Origin: Tachypleus tridentatus | Lineage: Eukaryota; Arthropoda; Merostomata; Xiphosura; Limulidae | Length of the DNA stretch: 64,000 bases | Reading direction: 5' to 3' | Assembly (NCBI RefSeq): GCF_004210375.1 | Contig: NC_134830.1 | Span: 68,488,326-68,552,325 of the forward strand | Shown: positions 4,732 through 29,676 of the stretch, piece after piece | Numbering within the stretch: position 1 is the stretch's first letter | Layout of the letters: each line of letters begins with the position of its first letter | Translations under genes and position numbers: made by a program | Notes under the pieces: generated by a model | What the model saw: the letters and a program-made list of their open reading frames with translations, nothing else | What the model was told of the DNA's origin: nothing | The model's database searches: none

Positions 4732-4849
4732 ATGTCGTCATTGTCGACATTTCCATCTCCTCCACGTAAAGGCCAAATAACACTGTGAAATTGAAAGCCA
4801 TCTTGTGACGGGTTCGACAGATAGTGATGTTCATCAGTATACTGATCAG
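4732..4849 (+). CDS. AAAS: AAAS coding exon 1 (start codon, frameshifted)
   Basis: ATG at 4732 opens [18 protein letters not shown], matching the human N-terminus MCSLGLFPPPPPRGQVTL. This frame meets TGA at 4786. From 4784, in a different frame, the DNA reads [18 protein letters not shown] and so on, matching human YEHNNELVTGSS. One extra TG in the TGTG run would join the two. The exon ends in CAG before a GCAAGT donor. A weak acceptor-like TTTAG lies 11 nt before the ATG, so the 5' UTR may be split. Confidence 0.85.
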
Positions 4850-7800
4850 GCAAGTTATTGACCTGTGAACATGTCTAATTTCTACATTCAAGCTCATTCA
4901 TATTGGTTGGTTTATTATTAAATATAAGAATGAAAATTAAAGTATGGGGTTTATAGGTACCATACTTAAGTTAAATTTTGATTTCATGATGATGAAAAAC
5001 CCACTTGAAGTAAAATTATATCTCAGGATGGCTGGTAACACTTTTACTAAAATACTTTTATTAAAAGTGTTATTACAAATACCAGCCATCCTGAGAGACA
5101 TAAATTTTGATTTGTTAAAATTGTACAGGAACCTTCAAAATGGCTTTATGAGATTAAAGATTCTTCACCAACTCATGCTAGAAATGAAACCACATTATTT
5201 TGATTAAGATTTAAAACAATGGATCTTGTATTAATGATGATCCAGAGCTCAAAAATGTTGAGGACATTATGCTTAACATATTTGATAACTATATAAAATG
5301 GATAAATGTCTTTGAACTCTTTTGCTGTTAGCAGATTTTCTCAAATTTGTTTAGGAATTGGCTTGTAGTTTCAAGGGTTTGTTGCAGAAATTTTTGTTAT
5401 GAATTTTACATTGAATTTGTCAATTGGAGATTGAGTGTTGATCTGCATGAAGGATTTGGATTTTTTGTTAATCTACATTTTGAATTTAGCATGTTATCTT
5501 CGTGGAGAAATCGTAATATGCTATAGCATAAAAGCGGTAGAGTTTTGAGGCGTGATGTTCTACTTTTTTGTAGATAGTTTTTGGCCTTGAAGTGGAAATA
5601 TTCGAATAAATAATTATGTTGAATTATTTGATTTGCCACCTGATGGGGAAAAAAAAATCCAGTTTTGTGGGACATGGTATTGTGAATGTGGGTAGATAGA
5701 TCATCTTTTAGAGCTTCCTTAGTTTCCTTTGTAGTGATAGAAATATCAGTGTTTTATAAAACACTATAGGCTGATGCTACTTACGGTGAGTTTATAAGTT
5801 TTCTGAAGTCACATTTGTTGTAAGGAATATGAAGATGGTAGACCATAAGTAATGATGGGATGACATATCAAAAAGTAAACTGAAAGTCTAGTGAATCTAT
5901 GTTGTGAATGATAAGGGTTCAGACAGGACCTGAAGCAACTTTTCTTTGTGTTCTTAAATGTTTACCTGATTTGTAATTTGAAGAGGCTTTCTATTATTGT
6001 TTAGAAAAGAATAACTATTTAAAAGATTTGTGTCTTTAAGGTGTACTTTATTTTTTGGAGAATACAAGTTTCTTTTAAATTTTATATTGTGACATGATGG
6101 TTTATTTTAGGTGAGCCAGTATCCCAGAATTGATCTGAGCACAGAAAGTCTGAGACCTTTTGTATGTCGAGAAAATTCTAAGAATGCTTTTATGCATCAT
6201 AATGAATCTGTTGCCAAAAAAATATTTGTTTCATGGTAAGAAATTACTTATATTTACATTTAAATATCAAAATGGTTGATATACACTGCTGGTCAAAATC
6301 TTGAGGCCAATGAACATAAAGAAAAAATATACATTTTGTGTTGTTAGACTCAACCACTTATTTGAGTAGAGCTTTGAAAGATGAAAATAAGAAAAGAGAA
6401 AATAAAAATAAAAAACTTTTTTTAGCATTTAACAGGGAAAATGTAAACACTATGAAATTAGCCTAAATACTAGCTGGTCAAAAGTTTAAGATCATACTGA
6501 AAAGAAGCGTTAATCGCTAAACACGTAACAAAATTTAGTCATTTGTGTTCAAGCATTAGCGTTGTCAACATCTCCCACTGATATCTCCTGTGTTACATTG
6601 GGTAAAAACTTGGCAAAGGCTAAAAAGTTGACAGTTTGAATGTGGCAGAATTGTCATGCTGCGAAAGCAAGGTCTCTATCAACGTGACATCATTGGTGAG
6701 ATTGGGAGTAGTAAAACTGTTGTTGCAAATATCTCAATAGACCCTGAGGGATACAGAATGAGAATTTCAAGTGGTCGCCTCAAGGAAATTTTGCTGGCAT
6801 TGAGCAGGAGGATTCGACGGGTTGTCTGGCAGTACACCAGCCGATTGTCGAACCAGGTTAAGGCCCTTACAGATGCAGAATGCAACTCAAGAACAATAAG
6901 ACGGCATCTATGAGAGAAAGGCTTTAAAAACCGTAAACATCTTCAAAGGTCACACCTCCTTCCACATAATGAAACAGCTCGGTTAAACTTTGCTGAGAGG
7001 CACCAAACATGGGGCGTAGAAAGTTGAAGAAGGTTTTGTTCTCTGATGAGAAAAAATTTAACCTGGATGGTCCAGATGGCTTCCAAGGTTACCTGCATGA
7101 TAAGGATATCCCACCAGAGACATTTTCTACATGACACAGTGGAGGAGGTTCCATCATGATCTGGGGTGCTTTCTTCTTCCATGGAACAATGGAGCTTCAG
7201 ATTATACAGGGGCATCAAACAGCAGCTGGCTACATTGGCATGTTGGAGAGAGCATCCTTACTGACTGAAGGCCCTTGCTTGTGTGGAAATGACTGGATCT
7301 TTCAACAGGACAATGCTGCAATCCACAACGCCTGAAGGACAAAGGATTTTTTCATGACGAATTACGTGATTATTTTGGACCATCCAGCGTGTTCACCGAA
7401 TTGAACCCCATTGAATATGTTTGGGGATGGATGGCAAGGGAAGTCTATAAAAATGGACGTCAATTCCAAACAGTGCCTTGTCTTCGTGAAGCCATCTTCA
7501 CCACTTGGAATAACATTCCAGCCAGCCTTCTGCAAATGCTTATATTGATCACACCAAAGTGAATGTTTGAAGTTATTCGCAATAAGGGCCATGCAACTCA
7601 CTACTGAGACCTCTTGTTGGGCATTTCGTACTCTGTTTAGGACTTCTTTTTGGTATGGTCTTAAACTTTTGACCAGCTAGTATATAGGCTAATTTCAGTG
7701 TTTACATTTTCCCTATTAAGTGCTAAAAAGTTTTTTATTTTTATTTTCCCTTTTCTTATTGTTATCTTTCGAAGCTCTACTCAAATAAGTGGTTGAGTCT

Positions 7801-10800
7801 AACATTGCAAAATGCATATTTTTTCTTTGTTCATTGGCCTTAAGAGTTTGGCCAGCAGTGTACATATTTAAGTCTTGAAATGTATTATTTTTTGTATATA
7901 AATAACACACACCAAGATATTTGTAAGTTTGATAAACTGTATATGTTGCACAGAAATTGTCTTTGTGCCAGGATTCTAATCATTCTATTTATTTGTGATA
8001 TATAATTTGTGACTACTTTAACTTATTACATTATAGGCTTAGCTGTTCATGGTTTTATGATGTATTAGTCAATAACATTAAGAAAATGTTTTCTGATATG
8101 ATACTTACCTCTACTCACAAAATCAGCTATTCTTGTTCAGTGCTGTCTTTTTTATGTAAACTTTTCCTCTATGCATACCAGAGGCCTTCTCTCTCCCATG
8201 TCTCCCCCTCGGTGTGGATTCCTGTACATGGTGAGGGGACCTCCCAGAAAAGGCTCTGTTTTCTCAGTTTACTGCCTCTTGTTTTTTTTTTCCCATGAAT
8301 CCCATTTAGTGGTGAGTGGTGCCTGACCAGATATTCTTTAATTAAAACTCTTTAGTGTACAGTCATATCAACTTGTGCATTATTTTCCATGGTTTTGTTC
8401 ATACTTACCAACAAGATGTGGCATTTCACAAGATCTCTTGAGGAGACATAACATCTCAATATTTTGCTTTATTTACATGCTCATCCTGTATAATAAAACC
8501 CATGCACTCTATGGGTAAAGTAGAAGAGGATTTGTGTCCATCCTTGTCATTTTTCAAGTGAATAACTTGGTATAGTCTACTTTTGAAAATAAAGTTTTGT
8601 AGTAGCCCATTGCACTGTCCCAGGTGATGACATTCTTCCAGACTCTCCATTGTATTGTTGTTCTCCTATTCTTTCCTAGAGTCTTTCCCATTTCCATGTT
8701 ACTGGAATGGTTGATTGTGGAGGCACACCCTCCTGAATGGGTTCCACAGAAAGATGGCTGTAACCATGCAGTTGTGAGGAAGGAAGTGGTGTTCTGCTAA
8801 GTTTATATGAGGTGTGGCCTCCAGAGGAGTTGACTTTGCATATAGAGGGCAGCACTAAACAATTATAGCTAATCTTATGAGATGTTAAGGTCCTATTGGA
8901 AATAGGTTTTCAGTATGGGAAAATTATAACTATGTTGTGGTTGGTTTATAAATCATCTATACAGAGTAAAGAAAAAGAATAATTCAATCAGCACACTTGT
9001 ATTCACAGGTGAAGTTCATTTCTTCTAAATATATATTTTACTGAGTATTATTTAAGTGATAAGTCTTTGTTTTTAAATTGTCAGTTAGTAGAATCTTTTC
9101 AGTTTAATATATATACATATTGTTCCTTTTTTTATAGGCAAGAGCAAGGTGTTAAAGGAGTTCTTGTGGAATTAGCAAATAATGAAAAAGATGATGTTTG
9201 TTAGTATTAATGGTGTTTTTTATGGATTGTTTTTACATATTTCAAAAACATTTTTTATCTTTAATTCTGGGGAATGTTCAGAACCTCAAATTATACAACA
9301 AACACTTATTTTGATGTAATCTGTAAGAATAAATGTGTACTAAAAATCATGTAGAAAATTTTAATTCAAATAAAAAATCACTGTTTAAATAAGTCCAGTT
9401 TTCTCTAAATCGTTTTTCTTTTCTGAGTTGATATGTAAAGTACTGAAGTTTTTTTTTATTCTGTAAATGATGTTACATTTACTAAAAAAATTTTGATGTC
9501 AAATGTTGAAATGCTTAATTTGATTAAACTATGTGCTCATTGGGAAGGTATTATCAGAAAAAATCACTTCTGACTGGTATCAAATGAATCAAACTGATGT
9601 TTAATGAATGTTTCTTGAAGAATACAGAATTTTTTCCATAGTAAATTAAATGAATATGACTAAAACTTAAGTTTTTTACAGCATATAGGTAAAACATTTA
9701 CTTAAGCATATATGGAAATAGAATTAATCTAAATTAAATTTTAAACATTTGGATTTAATATTCAAAAATCTAAGTAATTGAAAAGAGTTTTGTGTTATTT
9801 ATATTATGATTGGTATTTAAGAAACTTTGACATTTTAAGATTCAGATAACTATGGTATAAATGGTTGAGAATATAAAATTATATTTTAATATCTTCATAA
9901 TCAAAGATTACTTCTGTAATACTTAAGAAGTGCATAATATCATAAGTAGGTAAATCAGTTAAGGAAACCTTTATTATACATTTTACTCAGTGACAGAGCA
10001 TGAGCTTTGTTAGTCAAATATCCTGTGTTCAAGTCCTAACCATAAAATTTTTCTTCACTTGTCAAGTTTTTTATTTTAAGTATTTAAAACTATTATAAAA
10101 AACATATTACATTGAATACCTGTTTTCTTTGTTTTTTGTCATACAGATTTGTTTACAACATATAAATTGCTATGTATATATACTTTAAACAAAATGAGTG
10201 AACTGTAACATTTTGTTATATAAATTCTGTAGTAATTTTCTAAGTATTCATGTATACATCAAATAACCATTATACTCAATACGTAGGAAATATTTTAACC
10301 AACTGAAAGTGTTCTGAACATGTGTGATAATTTTAATGCTTGCATTTTGTGTGTTCTCAGATTCATGTAACAGTTATTCTTTTTAGTAAGTTCTTGTGCA
10401 AGAATTACTGCTCAACTTTTACTCAGAACTGTACAGTGGATTGGCTCAATCTATGGTTCATTTTTTCCTCACACATTGGTAAGTTTTTTTCTTTTCTTCT
10501 ATGCAGTTAAAAGTACTTGTGTGATATGCATGACAATGTTGTTTAGAAAGAACTAGGACATCTAATCATACTGTGTCTTGTTTTAATATTTTATATATAT
10601 ATATTTTTTTTTTTTGAGTGTAAATGGGATATCTATTGGTGTTGTTTTAAATGCCTCAGGGTGTGACATGTTGTTGAGAATTGTAATATGTATCATTAGG
10701 AAGTACATTATGGTGTTAAATGTCATTGGGAAATGCAATATTTATCGTAAGTGTCTTGTGGTTTGAAATGGTCTTCAGAAATGATGTAATATTTGTCATT

Positions 10801-13800
10801 GCAAGAGTCTCAATGATATGAAGTATTGTAAAGAAATTGTGTAATATTATTAGAAATATCCCTTCATTTGAAATAGTGGGAAACAATGTAATTGGAAATG
10901 TCTCATGTTTGCTATGTTTTGTGCTGTTCTGTTCTTCTATGTTCTGTGGATTCTAATGTATTTTTCATTTAATCATTGAGAGGACAATTTTGCTGTTACT
11001 CATCATTAATATTTAAAGTATTGGGGTAACTTTTAAATAAAAAAAAAGAGGGTGAGATACAGTGAATTAGTGTTACTAATTTTCTCATCTGAAAGGAACA
11101 CTAAAGGAATAAAATTGTCAAATTTTGTTAAGGAACTAAAATGTAGGAAATCAAGAAAACTGAGCATTGGTACATATTCATTAAGAACAAATATGCTGTT
11201 TTTATCACAAGTTTCATATTACTGAGCATGATAATACACTGAAATAATAATTAATGAATTCAAGTTTCATATCAGTGGTACAACATAATCAGAATAGTTT
11301 ATCTTAATATATATCTTGGATATTTCATGTTCTTATAGTTGTTGGAAGAAGACTTAATAGCCCAGTTTTGTCCAGCCTTGGATTGGTAAGTTTTATTTCA
11401 ATCAGCTTGTTTGTGATTGGTACCTAGGTTTGTAAGTATCACCATTAGCTGTATGATGTATATGATTTTTTAACCTAATAGAACATAAATGTTTGGTGAC
11501 TTCACGTTCAAATTGACAAGTATGCAACTTAAATGTATTTTCATGATTGATTCTTTTAAAGGATTTTGTTCAGATCATTTTTGCTGACTGTAAGTGACTA
11601 TTATTATTGCCATATTTACTGTTTTATTTTTAGGTATCATGGAACAATTCAGGCTTTTGCATGGCATCCTCATACATCCAAATGTGCAGTTGCCTTGCGA
11701 GATGATTCTGTTCGAATTTTTGCCTCTGGAAGTAGAGTTACACCTCTACTAAAGCACAAACAACAGAGAGGTGTGGCTGACATGGCTTGGAAGTGAGTTT
11801 GAACTTTGCACTTGTTTTTGCAATTAATTTTTTGTTCCAGTATTGTTCTTACCAATCACTGTGAAAACTAATACTTAAAATTGCAAATTCTGGATAACTG
11901 TGTTGTTTGAGGTAAAAATTATAAGTTTGTAGTTTGTTTCTACTGGCAGTTTATTAATGACAGATTGTTTTTTTCAGTAAATATTCAATATCATCAGTTC
12001 TTTCCAGAACTCGTATCTTTTATATGGAAGATATCAAAGCTTTCCCCCCTCAGTGTGGATTCCTGTACATGGTGAGGGGACCTCCCAGGGAAGGTTCTGT
12101 TCTTTCAGTTTACCTCTTCTGGGATCTAAACATTAACCTATGTGTTTGCCATGCGTGGCAACCCGTGAAGGGGAGGAGAGGATCCTGGTGGTTGAGGGGG
12201 TCCAACCCTAACATACCACTTTGGCCTTGAATTCCTGTAGATGGGTGGTTTTGGGGTGGGTTCCTTTGGGTCAGTTGGGTGGTTCACTTGGGCTAGGTTG
12301 AACCAAGTACCAGTGTTGGATGTTCTTAACAGGTGTCGTGGACATTGCACCTGATGCTGGTGTTTGTGTATAGTGCTCATGAAACCCTGGCATTGCTGCA
12401 GTGTCCTTGTTTGACATTGTAGTGTGTCCCCTTGTAGGGCTCCATGGTGGGTGGGGTCAGTGGGCACCAAAATTTCCCTTTCTTTATTATGGATACTCCA
12501 ATTAAAAATCTTAATAAAATAGTGAAAAAACAGTCTATAGGTAAACGACCACGTCTTGAAGATTCTGAGCAGCAATCTTCACCATCCGTAGCACCTGTTG
12601 TACCTCATTTTCTTATATTGCACTCACTTTCAGACAAACGTTTAGGGTAAATGTCTCCCTTTTTCATTCAGAAGGAACTAGAGGGACTTTTTGGCTCTCC
12701 AAAGTCGGTAAAAAACCTTTAATGTGGTAACATGTTGGTGGAAACATCCTCATCTCAACACAGTGAACTCTTGTTGCATTCAAAGGCAATTGGGGATATA
12801 CCTATAGAGGTTACACCTCATGCCACTTTGAATTCATCATGAGGAGTTATTGTTGAGAGGGATTTGAGGAACATCCTGGAGTTAGAGATTCTCACTGGTT
12901 TCTCCACCCAAGGAGTTTCTGCAGTGAGGAGTATCTCCACTCGCAAAGATGGAATTATGGTGTCGACCAGTGTCCTCATTCTGACATTTACATCACCACG
13001 TCTGCCTGCCACCATCAAGGCAGGTTATTTTAATTGCAGAGTACGGCCATACATTCCAAACCCTCTCTGATGCTTCCAGAGTCAATGGTTTGGTCACTCA
13101 AAGATGTCATGTTGTGGTTTCTTGATGTGTGCTCTTTGCTGTGGCAAGGACCATGATGCCTATGAGTGTGAAATGGACCCTCATTTCATGAACTGCAATG
13201 GCTCTCACCAGTCCTAATTTCATTCTGGCCCTAAATGGTTAGAAGAAAAAGAAATGCAGCATTTGAAAACAATTCATAACATTACCTATGCTGAAGCTTG
13301 AAAATTGCTCTCCACCATCTCATCTCAGATGCATGCTGCTGCACTTTGTTCCACAGCTACTGTGGGAGTGCAGATAGATCTTTCTGTGTCTCCAAGAGAA
13401 TTGTTCTCCAAACAAATGAAAAGTCTTTTGACATCCATACCTAAAATAGTTGATGAATCACTTATATCTGTCCCCTATATACATTCCACCAAACCCCAAG
13501 ATCCACTTCCTTTGGTTTTAGGTACAGGCATTTCCTCGGATCCATCTTCCTCTCTCACCCCAAGATGCAAAACAATCATTCGTCCATGTTCTCAGTCTCT
13601 GGAATCCCCTTCCAACAGCAAAGACCTGCCCAACCGACCCAGGGCAGGATCCATGGAGGTCGATAGACTTTCCTTGAGTAAGTAAAGTAAGGAAAAAAGA
13701 CATGGTCATAAACAGAAGGGTTCTCCGCCCAATTTGCCTACACGTAAATAAAAATGGTCACCCTAATACAATGGAACTGTTGAGGTTTACGTTCTAATCT

Positions 13801-16800
13801 GGAAGACATCAAAACACTGATTACTTCCTACCATCCTGTTTCTCTCTCCTTACAGGAAAAATTTCTTAAACCTACCGATACAGTCACCTTTTAGCAGTTT
13901 TCTTTATACAGAAATGACAAGCTGTGTGATGGGCGAGTGCATGGAGGGGTGGCACTGTTAGTTGATCAACATGTGCCTACCCTGTCTTTCCCACTCAACA
14001 CCCTTGGAGGCTGTGGCCATTTGTGTTTCCTTGGGTCATACCATCACTGTTTGTTCTTTCTGTCTGTCACCTGGAAAGACATGATCAATCAGACCTTGAT
14101 GCTCTCATTGAACATTTGCTGTCTCCCTTTTTCATCCTGGGGATATATTGAGCAGCAACTACAAACTGCCCTCAATCGTGTACTGAAGTGGACTGGGGCA
14201 AACGGCTTTAATTTTTCTCTCTCTAAAAGTGTTTGCATGCACTTTTGCTGCCAACGGGGTATCCGCCCTGATCCTGAACTCCGTATTGGTGAAGTTTTGC
14301 TGCCAGTGGTCCCTGAGACCAAGTTCTTGGGGCTTATTTTTGACCGTAAGCTGACCTTTATACCACACTTAAAGCAGCTACGGGTCAAATGCACAAGAGC
14401 ACTGAACATCCTCCGTGTCCTCTCTTCTACCAGTTGGGGAGCAGATCGATGTTCAATGTTAAAGGTATATCGTGCTCTTATTTGATCAAAACTTGACTAT
14501 GGATAAATGGTCTATGGCTCTGCCAGACCCTCGGCCTTAAAGATGCTGGACCCCATTCATCACCAAGGACTTTGACTCAGCACTGGGGCTTTCCGCACCT
14601 CTCCATTTCAAAGCTTATACGTTGAATCTCATGAACCTTCTCTGCACCTTCGCCGTTTGCAACTGTTTTTACAATATACTTTGAAACTTCGCTCCTTACC
14701 AAAGTATCCCACCTGGGAATGTGTTTTCCTTCCTCGGTGGGCAGTACTTTTTCAGAACAGACGATCTGTCATTGCTCCGTTTGGCCTTCGCATCCGGGCG
14801 CAATTGGATGAATTGGGTCTGTCCTTGGATAACATTGCAGATTCCACAGGTCAGCCCATCCCACCATGGCTTATTACAGCTCCCAAATGTGACCTTTCTT
14901 TCTGTCACCTAAAAAAGGCAGATACACCAGATTGGAAGTACCGTCTTTTATTTAAAGAACATCTTTCGAACAATCATTCAGTTCCAATTTATACAGATGG
15001 TTCCAAATCAGGTAATACAGTGGGCTGTGCTATGGTTTGCTGTGGTTCAGTAGTTGCATGCAGAATTCCCTCTACAGCTTCTGTGTTCACTGCTGAACTG
15101 TATGCCATATCTCTTGCCCTGGATCATATTGCAGCTGAGCAGTACTCTAACTGTACTATTTATACTGACTCCCTTAGTTCTCTACTGGTCTTGGAATCGC
15201 TACACTTTGACTCACACCCTGTTCTCGCTGATATTCAAAACCGACTGGCCCATTTCTCATTAACAGCTACTTCTATCCAGTTTTCCTGATACCAGGCCAC
15301 GTTGGTATTCCCGGGAATGTGCTTGCAGACATTGCAGCTAAATCTATCTGTTCGGCACTATCACCCCTGTGCCTATTCCGTACATGGACTATGGTCTTGT
15401 CTTCAAGGCTCGGCTCCATGCCAGCTGGCAGTCCACTTGGAGTGAGCAACGTGACAATAAGCTTTTTCAAATAAAACCCTATATTGGACTTTGGCCATCT
15501 AGCTTTCGTAAAGTTCAGAAGGAGGAAGTTGTTCTCACTAGGCTACGCATTGGTCACAGTTTTTTAATTCACCGTTTTCTTTTGTCTGGAACTGATGCAC
15601 CAGTGTGTAGTTTGTGTAACACTCAAATCACTATCAGCCATGTTTTACTTTCTTGCCATCGTTACGATTCTCAATGACGGCAATATTTTAAACATATTTT
15701 TTCCCAGGGTCTATCTGTAACATTGGACAGTGTTATTGGTAATGGTGACACTGCCCACCTTGATAAAGTTTTTAGTTTTTTAATGGCCATTAATCTTTTT
15801 AATCTCATTTAAGTGTTGCATATTTATTCATTACACCTTTTTAATTGTGGTTCCTTTTTTACAGTTTTAATCTCTAGATTTGCACTAAAAAACAACTATA
15901 TTAAGAACTATCTTACAAAATTGTAATTTAAAAACTAATCATTTGTGCTAAGTGTAAATTGTTTTCCTTTGGTAATGACCATGACTTTGTATAAACAGAT
16001 TAAATTATTTACTTTGTATATAGATTTTTCAATGGAAGATACAAGACAAATCTGAATTTTTCTAAGGTTTAGAATGATTTATAAAAGCTATATCAATTTT
16101 GTAATTCCAAAACTTTGATCTAATTTGTTTAGTTCAATTCAGTTTTTCTGTTATGAAACTAAATTCTGGCTGTTTCTAAGTTTATTTCTGTAACTTGCAT
16201 TTTTCATTATCTTTTTATATAGAATATTTAATATTTTTCTACTTTATCATTGTTCTTGCATTATTTGTGACATATCACCTTACTTTTATTTTAGTGTGAT
16301 TCTATATTTTTGCAGTTAATGTTTTTACTTTTGAAACTTTGACTTTTGCAGACTTTTTTGAGTTATGTTTTTAATTATATTTGTATTGTCTTAGACCTTA
16401 CAGTGCCTCATACTTGGCTGTAGCATGTCAAAGTGGTATTCTTCTATGGCAAATTGAACCAACATCTTTAGTGACAAGGTATCTATGCTTGAAAAATTCT
16501 CAAAATAATGTCTCAAACAAATTATTCAAAATATATTTTTTTATCCATTTAGCAGATTTATATTCAATATTACATGTATTTTAAGGTTATATTAAATTTA
16601 CTTTTATACTTGGTCTGTACTAAATACAAATCTGTTCAGCTTTAATCATGGAGCATTATTGATTTAACTATACATTTTAGTGTTTGAGGTATGGTCTGCA
16701 TTTGACAAATTTTCAACTAAATATGGAAATTGTGGAAAACACTTAGACATTTTAGTTTGATTAAAAATTTTTTTGTGAAAATACTCATTGAAATGCATTT

Positions 16801-19800
16801 AATTCTGTTTGTATGAGCTTGGTCATTTTGACCAAACATAAAAATATCTATAATATAACTTTTAATGTGGTACATACATGTTCGTAAATGTGGGCAAGCT
16901 TTTAATAAATTTAACAAGTGTCTCATACACATAAAACCAAGTTTTTTGGTTAAGCATTTTTACTTAGGACTTGTATGAATATGTGGTCAGAATGTTTATT
17001 AGTCCAAGTGCAAAGTGATCTTTATGTTAAAATTGAAAGTACTTTCATTTATCTCAGTTTTCAGATGCTATTTGCATAACCTTTAAAATCTCCAAACTTA
17101 TTTTTAATCTTTTTTCAGCAAAATTTTATATCTTATCTGTTATTTTTCTACCTTAATTCATTACAAACTTAGTTGATTTGACTGATCTTGCAACAACCAC
17201 AAAAAAAAGGCAAATTTAAATTACATGTTTTTGCTTTTTAGTATAACTACAGATTATAACAGAAAACTACAATTACTTATCCTAAATAGCATTGTACTGT
17301 CTAAATTCACACCTTGTGAATTTTTTCGTTGTTTTATCTAACCTAGCAAGTTCCTAATTTTCACATTTTACCTTTATAACAATGAATAAAAAATGTACAT
17401 AAAAAAACAAGAAACTTAATACTTATGTTTGACGTCTTGTTTTTTCTACTGGTCCACCAATCAAACTTAAGCATTCTTTTTTTTCGTAATTCTGGTACTA
17501 ATACATCAAATAATTTCTTAATTCAAGTATGCACTTAAGAATACAAAGTAACAATGTGTATAATAAGCAATGTCCTTTAATTTAACTGGTTTTCTAATTA
17601 AGGCATAAGTGTCTTAAAATATCTGTTAACTACTAAATCTAAATTCAACAATAGGAATTTTTAATCTGTAGGCAAAATGAAATCTCTACTGAGAAAAAGG
17701 TAGCATTATGTTATTTGGTAAATGAAAACTTTCTTTTGGGTGTAAATGATGTAATAGCAAACATTGGAAAACTATTGGCAGTAAATTTGTGAAAGAGAAA
17801 ATGTGATAGAAGGTTAAAACAAGTGAGTCTGACCTTTCAGTTTATATCTGTAAACATGAAAATTGATAGGTATGAAAATGAAACTGTGTCTATAGTAATA
17901 TCTGTACTATAATGCTTCATTTAGGACATCAGAGAGAGATTGGGAAGCCAGAAAGAACAAATGTCACAACATAAAAGGGGAGTTTCAGAATTTATTTGAA
18001 ATATTTCCTTTTGAAATTAAAAATTAAAATTTGCACTGTTATAGGTTTAAGAATTGGTGAACTTTGTGCAATATGTTTTATTTAAATTTCTTAAATAAAC
18101 AACTGGTTTCTGTAGGCCATCTTCCAGTTGCATCACATTTCTCCAGAGGAAAGGCCATGCTCCAGTAACTTCTGTTGCATGGGAACCAGACGGATGTATT
18201 TTGGTTTCTGCATCTGCTGCAGACACATCCATTCTAGTAGGGTCACATTTTAAAAATTTTCTTTTATTCTGTTTTTTTTAGTAGCACATGTCTCAAGTAA
18301 TATTTTAAAATACAGGAAACCATGTAAGGTTATTTTTATTTTTTCTGTGAGAGTTTTCCCGAAGGTTAAAGAGTTTTGAAAAGCCACAAATTGCAAACTT
18401 TACTACACTAGTTGGTGTGTGATTAACAAATTTCCCCAAAGTATTTATTTACTTATTTTTTAATGTAATCTTTAAATAGGTTAGGTTTGGCTTAGTTAAT
18501 ATAAAACTTTGTTTCATTGATAGTGATAAATTGGAAGATAATTTAAGACATTGAACAGTTTGTTTTTTGTAAGTTGTATGATGTGGGTTTATCAACCAAC
18601 TATTTCAAAAGTTCTATTGTCAAAGAAAATCTTTAGATTAATAGTAACAAATACATATAATTGATTTTTACTTCTTAAATGTGATGTAAATCAGTTATAG
18701 TAATGTGAAAATATTTTTTGTAAAATTGAATAAAACAACTTGTTTATTACTCCTTTTAAATATTCTTACACAGCTTTCAAAGGGCAAATGTCTTATAAAT
18801 ATTTTATTTCTCTTTAAAAGCTATGGGATATTGGTGCAGAGTCTTGCACACCCATGCGACGTGTTGGCGGTGGTGGTGTTTCATTCATTCGATGGTCTCC
18901 AGATTGTCAAAGACTTTTTGCTGCAACACCCTCTACACTATTCAGGTATCAGAATTCATAAAATCAAAACAAGATTTTATTACTTAGGTGTATAGTTTTT
19001 AGCATTATCACTGTAAATTATATTGAATGTTTTAAATTGTTACTGTTAATTAATTGTATTACTCTTAATCCATATTGTAGTAAAATAATTTATAAATATA
19101 TAAAGTTGTTATTTAATAATATATATTTTGAGCTTAAGAGGTCTCATTATATTGATTGTCACAAAGTTTGATTACATGACGCAGCTTGACAAGTATTGCT
19201 CAAGCAATCATGGTAAAAAAATTTAAATTATCTCTTTATGCAACGTAAATATATATAAAACAATGTAATACCCTGCAGTATAGATATATATACATGAAAC
19301 AATATAGCTCACCACAATATAAAGTTGCAATAAACAGTATCATTCCATGCAATATATGTAAAATAATGTAATTACCAGTCTTAGAACTTAAACAAGACCT
19401 ATACATTTCCATTGTGATTGCAGTTACTGTAGTTACTTCAAAAAATCCTTTCAATTGTCTAAGGAGATAAAAATAAGAAGTTTAATGGCTAATAAATTGA
19501 AGTCAAGGCCACCTGTGGCTTAACTACTTCCAGCTATTATACAAAAAGTATAATGTCTTCACCCTAACTACTTTTCTATTTTGTCCAAAGTTTAATGTCC
19601 AAACTTTCTAAAATTGTTTTCATCAACTTTAATTCCCTATCATTTAGACCAATTAGGCTACCAAAACAAATTTTCCTTTCTCAAAGCACCTCCACACATA
19701 GAGGAAGCTATCATTAACTTTCTTAGTATTTTATGCCAGTTATTTATTTGTAAATAAATCCAATATTTTTCTCTCTTCAAAATTCATTAATATATTAAGC

Positions 19801-22800: not shown

Positions 22801-25800
22801 TCTGATACAAATCTTATCAACGTACATTCACAAAATAGTTGTTCAATAAAAGTTTAACAAATGTGATGACATAGCCTTTGACCTGTGATCCATGTCAATA
22901 AGGTTAAGTATTTGTGTGGGATTATATAGTTAGACTGCAAGGTGATTTTCATGTTAAGATTAAAAATCCTTTTTTTTCTTTTTATTACTATTTCATTTGC
23001 ATTAAATTTCCCAACTGATTTTCAAAATTTATTTTCATTAAAACTATATTAGTTATTTTCTCCACCTACCTCTATGTGGACTCATTCACTGCAGCTGGGC
23101 TTTTTGGATTTATGAATGAGACAAATGACACCATAAAGTTTGTTTTAGTAATACTTATAAGTTTGTAATTTGCATTAAAATTCAAATATGACCTAAAAGA
23201 TGATTCAAATTATACAATTTAAAATGTTGCATGAAAAGTGAAGATTGATAATTTATTTAAATATTTTATTTTGCAATTTAAAAATTAAAACTGGTATGCT
23301 AATAAAATTTGATTTATTAAATACATTTGATGCCAAATTTATTAACATACATTGGCAACAAAGTAATTTCATTAGACTTTGAATGTAACTCTTAAAAAAA
23401 AAAAAAAAGTGTTGTGCACACTTTTTACCCACATAATTTTCAGAGGGTCAGTGTCCAGTACAACAACTGGGCTTAAACATAATACTCTTACTACAGTTTT
23501 TCTTTCCCATTTAATTACAATTTTCAATTGTCTATGTGACCATATCTGTGCTTATATTTAACTTTTTTGATTGTGTACTGTTATTATTACATATTTTTGT
23601 TGTTTTTTTGTCAATAAGATATTGTATGTGAAAGCTGGATTTATTTTTTTATTGATTTCTATATTTTTATTTCTTCACATCATTCTTAGTAATTATGTGC
23701 ACATGTATTTTACCCCCAGTTTGTATTTTTGTTCTTCCTTTTTTTTTATAAACAGTTCAGTATTTAAGTATAAATTAAAATAACTAACAGCTGTTTGGGC
23801 TAATAATTACTAATCATAGTATTCATACCTCATTGAAAAAAGTTTTTAAGAAGTTAACATTCTTCTAAAAAAATGTCAGGGAAGTACTAGATGAAAATAG
23901 TGTTCTGGTTGTGATGATATAATGTTTTTATATATTGAAAGTGGTACCCTTTATTGGAAAGTTTTTTTAAGTACTCCATGTTTTTAGTACTGTATTTACA
24001 AATTACGTCAATAAAGATGTAATCAAACTCTCACATATAGTTCCAGTTAAAGTCACATTTTTCTTGTCAGGAGGGTGCTTTGGTTTAAAATTATTTTCTG
24101 TGATACAGGAATGGTTGTTACTCATACTGTAGTTATTTTGCTAATTCTCTGAATCTTGAACATCCAACGTGTGAAAGTTTTTAATGGATTTTTGTTTGAG
24201 GTGCCATTAAATAGATTGTGCCATATTGTACTTATTTTAGACACACACACACATTCCATTATAGTAAGAAACTTATTTTTGTCACTTCTGTAGTATAATT
24301 TGTCTGAGTAAAAAATTTCTAAAACATTTTGTGAGTGTTGCAACTGATCTTTGTTAGAAACTAACACATTTGTTCATATATATATTATTTTTCTGAGCTC
24401 TCTCAATGATCACTATACAGCGTTCAAGTTACTTTAATGTCTGTTACAAAATTATGACAAAAGTTATTAGAAAATGTTTGTCATGCCTTTTTAAGCTATA
24501 AATGAAAGTTAGTAATACTCTAGTCAATTAGTGATTACTCCACATGTATAACTATTATATATAATATTCCTTTTCTCTGCATGAAAAGAGTAGAACTACA
24601 ACTTTACTTTTCATAACATAAATAGGATATGGGAGACACAAAGTTGGACTTGTGAACGTTGGTCTAATGTAATTGGGCATTGCCAGAATGTGTGCTGGAG
24701 TCCTGATGGTGGTGTACTGTTGTTTACAACATCAGAAGAACCACTGATTTATTCACTGTCCTTTGGGCCAACAGAAAATATTAAACCACATTCAGTAGCA
24801 GGATCCAAGTCTGCCATTCCTGTTGCTGATCTCACACCTATAGATGTGAGTGATGGATCAGAAACCATTAGGTAACATTTAAATTTATATTTCTGCTTTT
24901 CTACAGTAAGAAAGCTTATGTCTTTACTAATTATACAAAACTATGAGAAAAAAGATGCAATAAACATTTCAACAATTAATTTTTAACTCTTTCACTGTGG
25001 TTGAGACATATATTTCCTAGTGCACTGTGAAACCTAAATTTCAGCCACAATGAATGGATTAATAGATTAAATTTCAAATATTTTTATTAACTAATATTAC
25101 ATAATGCACATTTCCAGTCCTTTATATAATTTTTCCTACAAATCCTAAAGGTATTTATGATGGAGAGTATTTTTAACAGATATTAGGATAACTTTAGACT
25201 GCTTCCTTTCATTTGCTCAGTTTAAATTGTTCTTTTGAATTATAGTAGTAAATGTGACATTGATTGCTTATTGGTTACAAACTAGAAAGTATGTATATGT
25301 TCTTAAATTATATTTTCATTGTATAAAAAATTTGACATTTCTATTTAGAATAGTTTCTAAAATATTGGAAAGGATAGGCTTATATAACAAGGTGTTAAAA
25401 ATGTAATATTTCTTTATCTTTTGGTTTAACTCTTACATTACAATGCTCATACAAATGTTCCCAGAAGAGCACTTTCCTATAATTTTGAATTTTTGTATCT
25501 TTATGAATAGAGGATGATCCCCACAAAGAGATTATCAGTTTCAGAGAAATAATGAAGTTTTGATATGTCTGTGTTTTATTGTTTATATAAAAATAAACCT
25601 GGCATATTGAGAGTTATCTATAAAGTGGCAGTGAAAGAATATTTTCTAGAAGTTGTTATATATTTTTGTCAAAAGAGGAAAAGTGTAAAAGTGTGATTAG
25701 GTATTTTCATAAAATTGGGTGATGTACTGATAACTTGATCTAGAATGGAAACTTTATAAATATTTATTGTTTTCGGTAGTGGTAGAATTCTTCATTTCAA

Positions 25801-28800
25801 ATACCATCATTGTTTGCAGTAACATGTCTACATGATTTGACTTTTATTACTAGTTAGGATTTCTCATTTTGTTGAACTTGTTATCTAGTTTTATCTCTAA
25901 ACAAAACATAATTGTTTCTGCTAAGAACTCCAGTTTCTATGTAAAAAATATCTTACAATTTTATATTGTATCTAGAACTGGTGGTCGTGTCCACCAAATG
26001 GTGTGGGATGCTACAGGGGAGAGGTTGGCTGTATCATTTGTGGGTAAGAAATTATGAATAAATTTGTCTGATAAAAAAACTAAGTTTTAAAAGGAGTTAA
26101 AATAACTTTTAAAGCATTTGAGTTAATGCAAAAACTTTGACTACAAATGCATATTAAAAGAAATGACACATTTTGCTAGTGTGGTACATTACAAGACAAC
26201 ACTTCTTCCTTCAATTTCTTTAAAAAATATATTTTGAATATATCATGCTAAAATACCTTGTAAATAGAATTGTCATGTGGGACAACTTAAAAATATTTTT
26301 TCCCTGGTGACTTAACATAAAGTTTATGAACTTAAAACATTAATACCTGGGGTTTGATTCCCCAAAGTAAGCAGAATTTGTATACCTTGTTGCATGGGTT
26401 TACATTAAAAAAAAAAAAAAATACCATACTTAGTGCTAACATCATAATCACATTGAAGTATTCTTGGATATCGCCATAAATTATCTGTTTTTCTGTAAAA
26501 GAATATGAAATGAAATGCAATTCAATAAAAAAAATTTTAAAAGACAACATTATGACTAAGTTATTATGGTAATAGGCAAATACTGCATTAAACTTTATAT
26601 GTTTGGTATAAGATGTGGTTGTTGATTTTCAAAGTTTCTGCATCAAAGTCCTGTAAATACAGGAATTGTGTCAATCAGGATAACTAAAAAAGTGTTTTGT
26701 GAAAGAAAATTACCAGGACATAACATAAATGCATACTATATATATGCTGTTATGCAGCACTAATGTAACCATTGACTTAAACCTGGTTTTTATGTACTCA
26801 GCAAAATGTGAACATAGTGTAATGATGGTGTGTGCTGTCCTACTTTGTTAACAGAAGTTTCGTAATAGATTGGCCTTTATATATTTAAAACCAATACAAA
26901 TAGATTTTATTTATTTTGCTCTAGTGCTTTTATGGAAGCCACTTCTGTAATTCATTTAGAAATTGGGTACAGCTGTTTCAAAAAGACAAATCCAAATCAC
27001 TATGCTCTTGTGAAGTCACCATGATGCACCTTTATTTTTAAGTTAGCAGGATTTTCTGTAAAGTAATGGCTTCAACAGATAAAGAAGCTGAGGACTTTAT
27101 GCAGCTTAAAAAATACTAAATTATGATATAGTTAAATTATTTGAAAGCATTCAATCAAAAAAGGTTTCTGACAATAATTACTAAATGTTTAAATATTAAC
27201 TAGAAAGAGAGGGAGCTCTGATAAATGGATTGATAAAAAAAGAAAATAACACAAACTTTCAGATGATATATTCATGATTTTTGTTAGCTTTGCAAGTCTG
27301 AAAATAAAAAAAAATTTAGCCAGCTAGACTTTGTAGTTTTGTCATACATCAGAAGTAGAAAACTTACTCTATTAGTAGCATTTAAGATAAAAATAATCAT
27401 CAAATGTACACGTAAGTCACAGAATTGTAGATTTGCTTCATGTATTGACAAGTTTTTACTTAAACATCAGGGAGTTTGAATATTTCAATTCCCAAAATAG
27501 AAATTACAACTGGGAGGAAAGGGCAAAAAATTGAAATTTAGGTTAGAAATTTAGTTTCACTTTTCTTACAGATCATTTGTCTGAAACAAATAATAGTAAT
27601 ATATATATACACACACACACATCAAAGTAGGGCTCTAAATTACAACATTTAATTATAGTTTATTTTATAGGTGATTTGCAGAGTAAAGGTACACAGAACT
27701 TTTAAAAACTTAATGTCATTTAACTTCATAAAAGTAATGGCAGTAAAAGAAGTTACTGGGCTAGAAAATATTTTTTTATTTTATCATTTTCTTCTAACAG
27801 TACAAACAAAAGGTTTAGGTTTTGCAATAATAAATAAAATATTATATATTTTTTCCTTAATTTTATTGTAATGGAAAATGTTGAATTTTTTTTCTTTTCA
27901 AGATAATCCTGAACTAATTGCTGTTTTTAGGACTCGTATCAAACCTTTATTGGAGCTAAGCCCTTGGTAAGTACACCAAGAATCATAGCTGGGGGTAATT
28001 GATTGAGATATACTGTAGTAAAGCAGGTTTTATACATATTGTATGTTATAGTTTTTAACCCTTTTACTGTGGCTGCCTTAAACCCATACACTGTACACAG
28101 CACACTTGCATTCAATTGTCAGAGGCACACTGTATCCTACATGGCAAATCAGCAGTCAATGGGTTAATTGGATGATGAATGATGTGAGACATTTTTTGGT
28201 GTGTTTTTTTGCAAAGCATTTGTCATTAAACTTGTAAGAGCTGAGAGTTGTGTGATTCTGAGGAAAATAATATGGGTCATTAACTGGGACTTGATTTACA
28301 GACATGACAGAACTGTTACTATCATATTACTGGATAATTTATATGTAAGTATTTCAAGTCTAGAACGTTTTGTCAGCATTTAAAATTAACAAAGTGAAGG
28401 AGCACAATTCCTCCTTATGAGCCAATGCAAGTTTTCAATTTACCATAATCTAGCTTAAATTAACCATATTTCTTCACTTGTAAGCTGTATTAACTGCATA
28501 TAATGTTTTAAGAAGTCTAAAATAACTACACTGTAAGAAAAAGTTAAATTGAATGCAATGTAATATGTTAGCTTATTTAAAAAAAAACCCTTATAATCCA
28601 TTTTATGTATAAAAATTCTGTAAGAACGTAAATAATTATACAGATTTTCATGAGGTGTGTATTTATAAAGTAGCAGTATTCAACCTGTTCTTGTATAAAT
28701 ATTTATCGGTGTGGTCTGTTCATGTATTATTCAATGTTAGCAAATTTTTGTCTTGTGAGAATTAGAAAAACTAGTGAGTTAGCTATCTCAATGAATATTT

Positions 28801-29676
28801 TGAATAAAATTAATATTTAAAATGAGTATATTTACTGCTATATCTGTGTAGTTTTGGAATGCTAAGTAAATTGTAAACATACTAAAGTAATCTCCATACT
28901 GTTTATTTAAACACTTTGTATTTTAAGTATGAGTTATTCTTATTACATCTAATCTTCTATTGTTTGAAGTTAGGTATTTTATACACAATATTTGCTTTAG
29001 AAAATGAAATTTAAACAGATATTTTCTTTGCTGTTTTTAGTGGATTTATCCGATCTCCAGGGAGAGAAGTTCCTCAACTTCTCTGCTTCCATGACAGCTT
29101 TGAAAGAGGTGCCTTGTTAACTGTGGTAATAATTTTATTGATTTGATATTAACTTCTCCAAGAGACGAAGTCCAAGTTGATCAAAATAAATCTCAAATTA
29201 CTACTTTATAATTGGGTTCCACATGAGGTGCCAGAACAAAAAAAGCTGAACCACATCAAACCTGTTATGAAGTATTTTGTATGCTGCTTAAATTGATTGT
29301 TTTTTGAAGAAAGTGTAAAATATATTAGGATGTACTCTACTGGATACTAAACATTTGTAATTCAGTTGCCTTATACCCAAAGTTGAAGAAACAATGTCAA
29401 ACTCACTCTGAAAAATGGCTTCATTCAGACTATTCTAATATAATGTGCTAACAACTTGTGTTTATATACATATCTACCAATTTTTAAAAGGATGTTTTTC
29501 ACTTGTAGTGCTGGAGTAGTGGAAAAATAAGCAACATTCCACTGTTGTTTGTACCAGTGAAAGCAGCAGCAACAAATGGATTTTCATCTTTTCTTCATTC
29601 AACCCCTTTATACCATAGGGGAATAGGGGAGGTGCCTCGTTCACCTTTTCTGTTTTCAAGTCCTGGTTCTTTGTAA
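4732..29676 (+). CDS. AAAS: Aladin, WD-repeat nucleoporin (14 coding exons; frameshift in exon 1)
   Basis: Spliced gene for aladin, a WD-repeat beta-propeller protein of the nuclear pore complex. In animals it is anchored by the transmembrane nucleoporin NDC1, and loss in humans causes triple A syndrome (family knowledge). Coding exons: 4732-4849, 6111-6235, 9138-9199, 10387-10478, 11339-11385, 11634-11792, 16395-16478, 18116-18236, 18821-18945, 24626-24871, 25976-26043, 27903-27966, 29041-29125, 29509-29676. Phases join at every junction and the total (1564 nt) lacks 2 nt for an open frame of about 521 aa (human 546). Collinear matches to human aladin run from the N-terminal FPxPPRxGQ segment through the WD core ([39 protein letters not shown]) to the C-terminal GKI(S/A)xIPL segment. 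A 2-nt loss near 4783-4787 breaks the frame. Intron 1 uses a GC donor; the other introns are GT-AG. Identity is very sure; whether the allele works is not. Confidence 0.95.
5021..5096. repeat. Long imperfect hairpin
   Basis: TCTCAGGATGGCTGGTA on the left pairs with TACCAGCCATCCTGAGAGA on the right. The inner arms ACACTTTTACTAAAA and TTATTAAAAGTGTTA also pair, with a 9-nt bulge. In aladin intron 1; probably the remnant of an inverted-repeat element. Confidence 0.75.
6111..6235 (+). CDS. AAAS: AAAS coding exon 2
   Basis: Acceptor TTTATTTTAG, donor GTAAGA. Reads [17 protein letters not shown]... to ...[18 protein letters not shown], matching the human segment around AFIHHREQVWKRCINIW. Starts in phase 0 and ends with two bases of the Trp codon. 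An in-frame ATG at 6192 is the first possible downstream start if the exon 1 frameshift is real. Confidence 0.92.
6284..7860 (+). mobile_element. Dead Tc3-like (Tc1/mariner, DD34E) transposon with long inverted repeats
   Basis: Complete element in aladin intron 2, flanked by TA at 6282-6283 and 7861-7862. Terminal inverted repeats of about 220 bp (6284-6507 and 7643-7860) carry two related sites each, an outer GCTGGTCAAAATCTTGAGG and an inner AGCTGGTCAAAAGTTTAAG. That is an IR/DR layout. The transposase spans about 6656-7605: an N-terminal helix-turn-helix ([12 protein letters not shown]), FSDEKKFNL with the first catalytic Asp, QQDNAAIHN with the second, and NPIEYVWG with the Glu 34 residues later. 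Stops at 6911, near 7132 and near 7334, and a frameshift at about 7401, kill it. Confidence 0.88.
6656..7605 (+). pseudogene. Tc3-like transposase pseudogene
   Basis: Broken transposase inside the Tc3-like element. The first 85 codons are open from ATG at 6656, covering the DNA-binding paired-type domain. The catalytic core is then interrupted by stop codons and by loss of one base between SPN and LNPIEY. Family: Tc1/mariner, DD34E spacing counted directly from the QDN Asp to the IEY Glu. Confidence 0.85.
8204..8272 (+). repeat. Fragment of the LINE 5' region
   Basis: About 70 nt (GTGTGGATTCCTGTACATGG and on through ACCTCCCAG) nearly identical to 12041-12110 at the 5' end of the LINE in intron 6. 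The flanking 8090-8890 is richer in G+C than the intron around it and may be older LINE sequence. Confidence 0.6.
9138..9199 (+). CDS. AAAS: AAAS coding exon 3
   Basis: Acceptor TTTTTTTATAG, donor GTTAGT. Completes Trp, then [20 protein letters not shown], matching human RDVGLFGVLNEIANSEEEV. Ends with one T that joins TA of exon 4 to give Leu. Confidence 0.9.
9981..10045 (+). repeat. tRNA-like SINE head, old
   Basis: TTTACTCAGTGACAGAGCATG resembles an A box and TGTGTTCAAGTCCTAACC a B box, at tRNA-like spacing. In aladin intron 3. Not a functional tRNA: no paired acceptor stem is seen. Confidence 0.4.
10387..10478 (+). CDS. AAAS: AAAS coding exon 4
   Basis: Acceptor TTCTTTTTAG, donor GTAAGT. 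Reads [18 protein letters not shown] then [12 protein letters not shown]; the last part matches human SSLHGSLFPHLSL. Ends in phase 0. Confidence 0.9.
10637..10915 (+). repeat. Degenerate minisatellite, unit about 50-55 bp
   Basis: Loosely repeated units around GAAATGATGTAATATTTGTC and GTCTTGTGGTTTGAAATGG, about five or six copies, in aladin intron 4. Copies are strongly diverged. Confidence 0.5.
11339..11385 (+). CDS. AAAS: AAAS coding exon 5
   Basis: Acceptor GTTCTTATAG, donor GTAAGT. Reads [16 protein letters not shown], the counterpart of human LRSEDLIAEFAQVTNW. Ends with two bases of Trp. Confidence 0.88.
11634..11792 (+). CDS. AAAS: AAAS coding exon 6 (first WD repeat)
   Basis: Acceptor TTATTTTTAG, donor GTGAGT. 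Reads [29 protein letters not shown], then [16 protein letters not shown]. This is the best conserved aladin segment (human [36 protein letters not shown]) and starts the beta-propeller. Confidence 0.96.
12488..13690 (+). pseudogene. LINE ORF1 (gag-like, zinc knuckle) pseudogene
   Basis: Nucleic-acid-binding ORF1 of the LINE. Begins [15 protein letters not shown]. The middle reads [18 protein letters not shown] then RPYIPNPL, typical of arthropod gag proteins of this type. Degenerate Cys/His knuckles ([20 protein letters not shown] and following) come after. Several in-frame stops (for example after RPYIPNPL) make it non-functional. Confidence 0.75.
13747..15812 (+). pseudogene. LINE ORF2 (EN-RT-RNase H) pseudogene, internally deleted
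   Basis: The endonuclease N-terminus is kept ([28 protein letters not shown]). The reading jumps from the PFFILGD motif of the endonuclease into [20 protein letters not shown] of the RT, so the endonuclease catalytic core and the RT palm with its YADD box are missing. The RNase H keeps its DGS, the Glu of AELYA and the Asp of TDSL. Premature stops are present at several points. Confidence 0.8.
16395..16478 (+). CDS. AAAS: AAAS coding exon 7
   Basis: Acceptor TGTCTTAG, donor GTATCT. Reads [18 protein letters not shown] then [10 protein letters not shown], matching human [28 protein letters not shown]. Confidence 0.95.
18116..18236 (+). CDS. AAAS: AAAS coding exon 8
   Basis: Acceptor GGTTTCTGTAG, donor GTAGGG. 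Reads [20 protein letters not shown] then [20 protein letters not shown], matching human [24 protein letters not shown]. Ends in phase 0. Confidence 0.94.
18821..18945 (+). CDS. AAAS: AAAS coding exon 9
   Basis: Acceptor TCTCTTTAAAAG, donor GTATCA. Reads [20 protein letters not shown] then [20 protein letters not shown], matching human [29 protein letters not shown]. Confidence 0.94.
18946..24625 (+). other. AAAS intron 9 (5.7 kb), largely featureless
   Basis: AT-rich. Apart from a tRNA-like fragment near 20 kb and scattered TTAACCTTTTCCCTG-like ends (about 21.17 and 21.34 kb) that resemble the MITE-like termini, I see nothing in it. Confidence 0.5.
19987..20050 (+). repeat. tRNA-like SINE head, old
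   Basis: GCAGTCTCATGGTGAGCTTG and GTGGTTCAACTTCTG have the spacing of A and B boxes. In aladin intron 9. No intact cloverleaf. Confidence 0.35.
24626..24871 (+). CDS. AAAS: AAAS coding exon 10
   Basis: The largest exon, after a 5.7 kb intron. Acceptor CATAAATAG, donor GTAACA. Reads [43 protein letters not shown], then [15 protein letters not shown]. Human counterpart: [49 protein letters not shown]. Confidence 0.96.
24983..25062 (+). mobile_element. MITE-like element with TTAA-type inverted ends (80 bp)
   Basis: Begins TTAACTCTTTCACTGTGG and ends CCACAATGAATGGATTAA, an imperfect inverted repeat. The ends resemble those of the 28055-28167 element. Lies in aladin intron 10. Confidence 0.5.
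25976..26043 (+). CDS. AAAS: AAAS coding exon 11
   Basis: Acceptor GTATCTAG, donor GTAAGA. Reads [20 protein letters not shown] then FV, matching human [20 protein letters not shown]. Ends with the first base of an Asp codon. Confidence 0.93.
26320..26405 (+). mobile_element. SINE-2-like fragment, old
   Basis: B-box-like GGGGTTTGATTCCCCAAAGT followed by AAGCAGAATTTGTATACCTTG matches the SINE-2 family loosely. Lies in aladin intron 11. Confidence 0.4.
27903..27966 (+). CDS. AAAS: AAAS coding exon 12
   Basis: Acceptor TTTCTTTTCAAG, donor GTAAGT. Reads [20 protein letters not shown] then P, matching human [20 protein letters not shown]. Confidence 0.92.
28055..28167 (+). mobile_element. MITE-like element with TTAA-type inverted ends (113 bp)
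   Basis: Begins TTAACCCTTTTACTGTGGC and ends GCAGTCAATGGGTTAA, an imperfect inverted repeat. Lies in aladin intron 12. No coding capacity. Confidence 0.5.
29041..29125 (+). CDS. AAAS: AAAS coding exon 13
   Basis: Acceptor TTTGCTGTTTTTAG, donor GTAATA. Reads [20 protein letters not shown] then ERGALLTV, matching human [28 protein letters not shown]. Confidence 0.93.
29509..29676 (+). CDS. AAAS: AAAS last coding exon and stop
   Basis: Acceptor TTTTTCACTTGTAG. Reads [20 protein letters not shown], later [11 protein letters not shown], then TAA at 29674-29676. Human counterpart [20 protein letters not shown]. The tail is shorter than the human one, which runs on with Pro-rich sequence. Confidence 0.94.
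   Translation, partial: CWSSGKISNIPLLFVPVKAAATNGFSSFLHSTPLYHRGIGEVPRSPFLFSSPGSL

Follow-up and report, generated by a model that had tools for sequence, protein, structure and literature searches.

The aladins of human and Xenopus (7r5j and 7wkk) are the closest known counterparts of the present locus: the protein obtained when the two frames of its first exon are read through aligns with both of them over nearly the full length, and the N-terminal pattern MxSLxxFPxPPxxGQxTL is common to human aladin and to this read-through product. Unlike the known aladins, the gene of the horseshoe crab Tachypleus tridentatus has its exon 1 spread over two frames in the assembly, and its protein is 6 residues shorter than the human one, directly past residue 420. 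We analysed a window of 64,000 nucleotides around it (C6:68488326-68552325) and searched the genome of 2,167,478,450 bases in 205 contigs. Most probably this split exon is either an artefact or a private mutation of an ordinary kind that affects a conserved gene, and no new mechanism is required by anything found.

A conserved aladin gene with a break in exon 1

Aladin (AAAS) exon 1 occupies positions 4732-4849 of the forward strand, where 18 residues are read from the ATG at 4732 before a premature TGA (4786-4788), and a second frame runs without a stop for 22 residues between 4784 and the donor that follows 4849, the two readings having the bases TG in common; the start, the stop and the second frame lie where the preliminary description had placed them. 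With the TGA at 4786 the gene does not show the single open frame from start to stop of a functional protein-coding gene. It comprises 14 exons on the + strand, from 4732 to 29676 (Table 1), and the phases are consistent at 13 of 13 junctions if exon 1 is reckoned two bases longer. The acceptors all end in AG; the donor is GC in intron 1 (GCAAGT, 4850-4855) and GT in the other 12 introns. Each of exons 2-14 is open and in phase, in agreement with the earlier claim that these 13 are intact.

Table 1. Positions in the window of the aladin exons and of the features of the exon 1 break
Feature	Positions	Strand	Remark
Aladin exon 1, first frame	4732..4785	+	18 residues
Aladin exon 1, second frame	4784..4849	+	22 residues; ends at GC donor CAG/gcaagt
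Premature TGA stop	4786..4788	+	in frame with the ATG at 4732
Frame break	4783..4787	+	two bases missing relative to aladin; placed only to within this stretch
Aladin exon 2	6111..6235	+	
First in-frame ATG past the break	6192..6194	+	T at -3; 454-aa ORF
Aladin exon 3	9138..9199	+	
Aladin exon 4	10387..10478	+	
Aladin exon 5	11339..11385	+	
Aladin exon 6	11634..11792	+	
Aladin exon 7	16395..16478	+	
Aladin exon 8	18116..18236	+	
Aladin exon 9	18821..18945	+	
Aladin exon 10	24626..24871	+	
Aladin exon 11	25976..26043	+	
Aladin exon 12	27903..27966	+	
Aladin exon 13	29041..29125	+	
Aladin exon 14	29509..29676	+	including stop codon

That both frames code for consecutive parts of human aladin, as had been suggested, is confirmed by scores, random draws and phmmer. 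The first 18 residues are the sole stretch in the window to score at least 60 against human residues 1-18 (six frames, 127,894 positions). For the 11 residues past the break, compared with human residues 19-29, the score is 24; among 127,936 window positions 2 reach this value, one of them precisely where it is expected, and random draws reach it 3 times in 200,000. The human letters used for this scoring agree with 7r5j. Identity to the human protein amounts to 11/18 before the break and 6/11 after it. With the joined 40 residues of exon 1, phmmer returns aladin 7r5j as the best match (E 7.6e-4), the remaining two matches up to E 10 being unrelated (E 0.51 and 1.7). The whole joined protein (521 aa) begins its alignment to 7r5j at residue 1, its residues 1-483 matching residues 1-489 (E 2.1e-142, phmmer 478.8 bits), and this alignment is ungapped at the break, as is that to Xenopus aladin 7wkk (469.5 bits by phmmer); against the human sequence, 244 of 522 aligned positions are identical. 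The Pfam family Beta-prop_Aladin (PF25460) matches residues 136-478 of the joined protein with 492.1 bits against a cut-off of 171.1, and the features of an aladin nucleoporin, namely the seven-bladed propeller and a near full-length similarity that includes the N-terminus, are both present. In a more distant protein that also goes by the name Aladin (9sob chain 4), the letters CEI stand at the position of the break, within a stretch of 2.6 bits that is not significant.

Two lost bases are favoured over one gained base because the alignment is ungapped at the break, and the same read-through alignment bears out the two-base break originally proposed within the conserved N-terminus. Judged from the letters, the break would be a loss of two bases, placed to within 4783-4787. 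The slippage of a TG unit that had been offered as its cause has fared less well than the loss itself: TGTG is present at the break, and, because it is frequent across the exons (15 in 1,564 bases), it is no special slippage site, so slippage is conceivable rather than indicated.

Several further features of the window were noted. Intron 2 of the gene contains transposase remains with a weak DDE_3 match under the Pfam cut-off (7293-7559), and intron 6 an open frame resembling a retrotransposon (14576-15286), whose RNase H match falls just under the Pfam cut-off and which sits in a GC-richer stretch (0.43 over 12001-16000). On the - strand, positions 41894-44623 form a 909-codon open frame, of low complexity by eye and with no Pfam match. 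An open frame at 55588-55794 with helix-turn-helix matches, HTH_24 just above its cut-off, is perhaps a transposase fragment, and a borderline Rfam tRNA match at 60177-60237 (29.8 bits against a cut-off of 29, where ARAGORN finds none) perhaps represents a tRNA-derived SINE.

A single locus and the expected consequences of the lesion, if real

Searched with the joined protein, the genome yielded 19 matches: 15 correspond to exons in the window, and the remaining 4 have weak scores (E 0.057, 0.24, 2.4 and 8.1). The DNA of exon 1 matches the genome once, at its own position. Horseshoe crabs have duplicated genomes, according to PMC7815833 and PMC7210998. In this genome neither a second aladin copy nor an alternative haplotype was found by the joined-protein and exon 1 DNA searches, which does not fit a redundant duplicate losing its function, and, with aladin found at one locus, there is no duplicate to make up for the loss. 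Among viral contigs nothing was found with the exon 1 DNA pattern, and the exon 10 protein query gave 3 stretches by pattern, none of them confirmed; in prokaryote genomes the same protein query gave 91 such stretches, again with none confirmed. A search of the literature for papers naming both aladin and Limulus gave a single one, on lectins to judge by its title.

The same genome carries coagulogen, which is not known outside horseshoe crabs and so supports a horseshoe crab as the source. Pfam Coagulin has 19 matches in the genome among those listed and no match in 14 control genomes, a control that says little, the named ones being prokaryotes. Two coagulogen exons agree with 1aoc, from Tachypleus tridentatus, at 48/51 and 47/47 aligned residues. 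The classical coagulogen is located at C11:9.02 Mb, and lower-scoring coagulin-domain matches at C7:19216972-20544518, C7:29071508-29076037 and C11:42928882-42964722 suggest a wider coagulogen-like family.

If the lesion is real, ribosomes starting at 4732 would halt after 18 codons, with the stop at codon 19, and nonsense-mediated decay is to be expected, because 13 exon junctions lie 3' of that stop. Along the spliced message past the stop, the out-of-frame ATGs 4827, 6164 and 6184 precede the ATG at 6192 in exon 2, which is indeed the next in frame, as first described; because of these three preceding ATGs and the T at -3, the 454-aa protein opened there would at most be produced inefficiently. 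With the exon 2 acceptor as partner, the 13 GT/GC donors in 4736-4859 all lead to ORFs that do not exceed 20 residues. Since no exon 1 donor joined to exon 2 rescues the frame and 6192 stands behind three out-of-frame ATGs, the allele, if real, would amount almost to a null: the loss of the N-terminus claimed at the outset holds, but as part of a nearly complete loss and not of a clean N-terminal truncation. If real and also fixed, the lesion would provide a natural test of the role of the conserved aladin N-terminus, no second copy having been found in the genome.

Origin of the break

The assembly shows an indel-error signature in at least one repeat array. On C8, eight near-identical Hsp70 copies are split at the same place, alongside an intact copy and another that has decayed and contains many stops; the eight are intronless, lie ~8.8 kb apart in a tandem array (L029-L036, C8:132821672-132867561 and C8:133773603-133793067) and are adjoined by the intact copy. 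Seven of the eight split copies were read, and all seven show a run of four A, against five in the intact copy. Some copies carry further single-base indels inside the reading frame, at differing places and mostly in homopolymers. Aligned over 4.26 kb, three of them (L031, L032 and L033) display 9 indel events, 2 being end effects and 7 internal, and 2 substitution columns, which arise from the alignment of one indel region; pairwise blastn among the three finds 0 mismatches in all 3 pairs, with 4, 5 and 8 gaps. Such an excess of indels far above substitutions is the signature of a noisy long-read consensus, and the array is either a real shared pseudogene array or an assembly artefact.

Outside C8, no abutting matches in differing frames occur among the 56 Hsp70 exon matches listed (14,058 nt; 73 of 98 candidates scored) or the 86 myosin exon matches listed (16,917 nt; 65 of 349 candidates scored). 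These 142 listed matches, 30,975 nt, are without visible frame break by a test that is insensitive near exon ends, the aladin halves themselves scoring just E 5e-6 and 0.88. The closest neighbours in differing frames among the listed matches are two pairs 151 bases apart, and these gaps are taken as introns.

From this material it seems rather probable that the two-base break was left in the assembly as a consensus error. The animal's DNA would then have an intact exon 1, from which full-length aladin of ~521 residues would be made, and the type of error seen in the Hsp70 array may have acted also at aladin exon 1. That a conserved gene found once carries one lesion and is otherwise free of decay speaks for such an error, although a recent allele would look alike, and so do the indel-dominated differences in another part of the same assembly (Hsp70, C8). 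However, the Hsp70 indels sit in a near-identical repeat array, where polishing is hardest, and they are mostly single-base and homopolymeric, whereas the aladin break is of two bases and outside a homopolymer; the frame is kept across the A7 run of exon 2, and the 909-codon open frame of the window is unbroken, which also argue against an error. The unlike character of the two-base event, along with the listed conserved exon matches elsewhere (30,975 nt) that lack a visible frame break, favours instead a real and recent loss-of-function allele in the population, which the assembly took from one haplotype and from which little protein would be made; we regard it as a serious, if tentative, possibility. 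Heterozygosity of T. tridentatus is ~0.65% (PMC6390705). Aaas-null mice are viable with infertile females (PMC13137949), so that a heterozygous null could be tolerated. Against a segregating allele, one haplotype is present in the genome, where the exon 1 DNA matches once. We place the error before the allele because of the Hsp70 signature, as weighed against the unbroken listed exons and the homopolymer contrast, and this is a judgement with no computation behind it. The choice that had been put forward, between an assembly error and a recent or polymorphic mutation, is itself supported.

It is improbable that the break is both real and fixed and that the sole aladin gene is expressed through a frameshift at CTG_TGA or in an N-terminally shortened form, in which case the animal would live without the conserved N-terminus of aladin. 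Taken separately, a fixed loss of the normal N-terminus, with aladin started at ATG 6192 or at a downstream near-cognate codon and the beta-propeller still made, is distinctly improbable. It would leave intact a propeller that comprises residues 136-478 of the joined protein, the ATG at 6192 does open a 454-aa ORF, and in the modelled Xenopus structure the contacts with NDC1 and Nup155 are on the propeller (PMC9061766), but both flanks of the break still match human aladin (11/18 and 6/11), which long disuse would have decayed, and the three out-of-frame ATGs ahead of 6192, as well as its T at -3, stand against its use. Hardly credible is a programmed ribosomal frameshift at CTG_TGA_A linking both frames, even though the first frame ends in UGA like antizyme +1 sites and the next is open at once. 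UCC_UGA is the shift site of most antizymes in the recoding review PMC5009743, the first 300,000 of whose 475,107 characters gave no CTG UGA in a term search, and CTG_TGA_A is not among the published +1 shift sites with which it was compared (UCC_UGA, CCC_UGA, GCG_UGA_C, CUU_AGG_C, CUU_AGU_U and GCG_AGU_U). Compared with 300 shuffles, the RNA beyond the site does not fold more strongly (z = 0.24, pseudoknots left out), and shifting by +1 would cost a residue at a point where the human and Xenopus alignments are ungapped; neither a known shift site nor a downstream structure beyond chance, as in an antizyme-type +1 gene, was found. A hidden splice event that removes the break appears just as far-fetched: a donor-like GT exists at 4766 (CAC/gtaaag), but against such an event stands the failure of all 13 donors when joined to the exon 2 acceptor.

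Comparison with known systems

The locus is mostly a caution that aladin gene models in this assembly may lose exon 1. The human AAAS exon 1 variant c.43C>A, first called p.Gln15Lys, affects the same conserved N-terminal stretch and leads to a truncated product (PMC13137949); it acts via splicing, whereas the horseshoe crab lesion is a frame break. With the gene-breaking indel errors known from long-read assemblies (e.g. PMC12007338) the locus shares the lone break, the otherwise intact gene and the indel-dominated differences elsewhere, and it differs from the typical errors of this kind in that its break is of two bases and outside a homopolymer, which makes it a less typical case.
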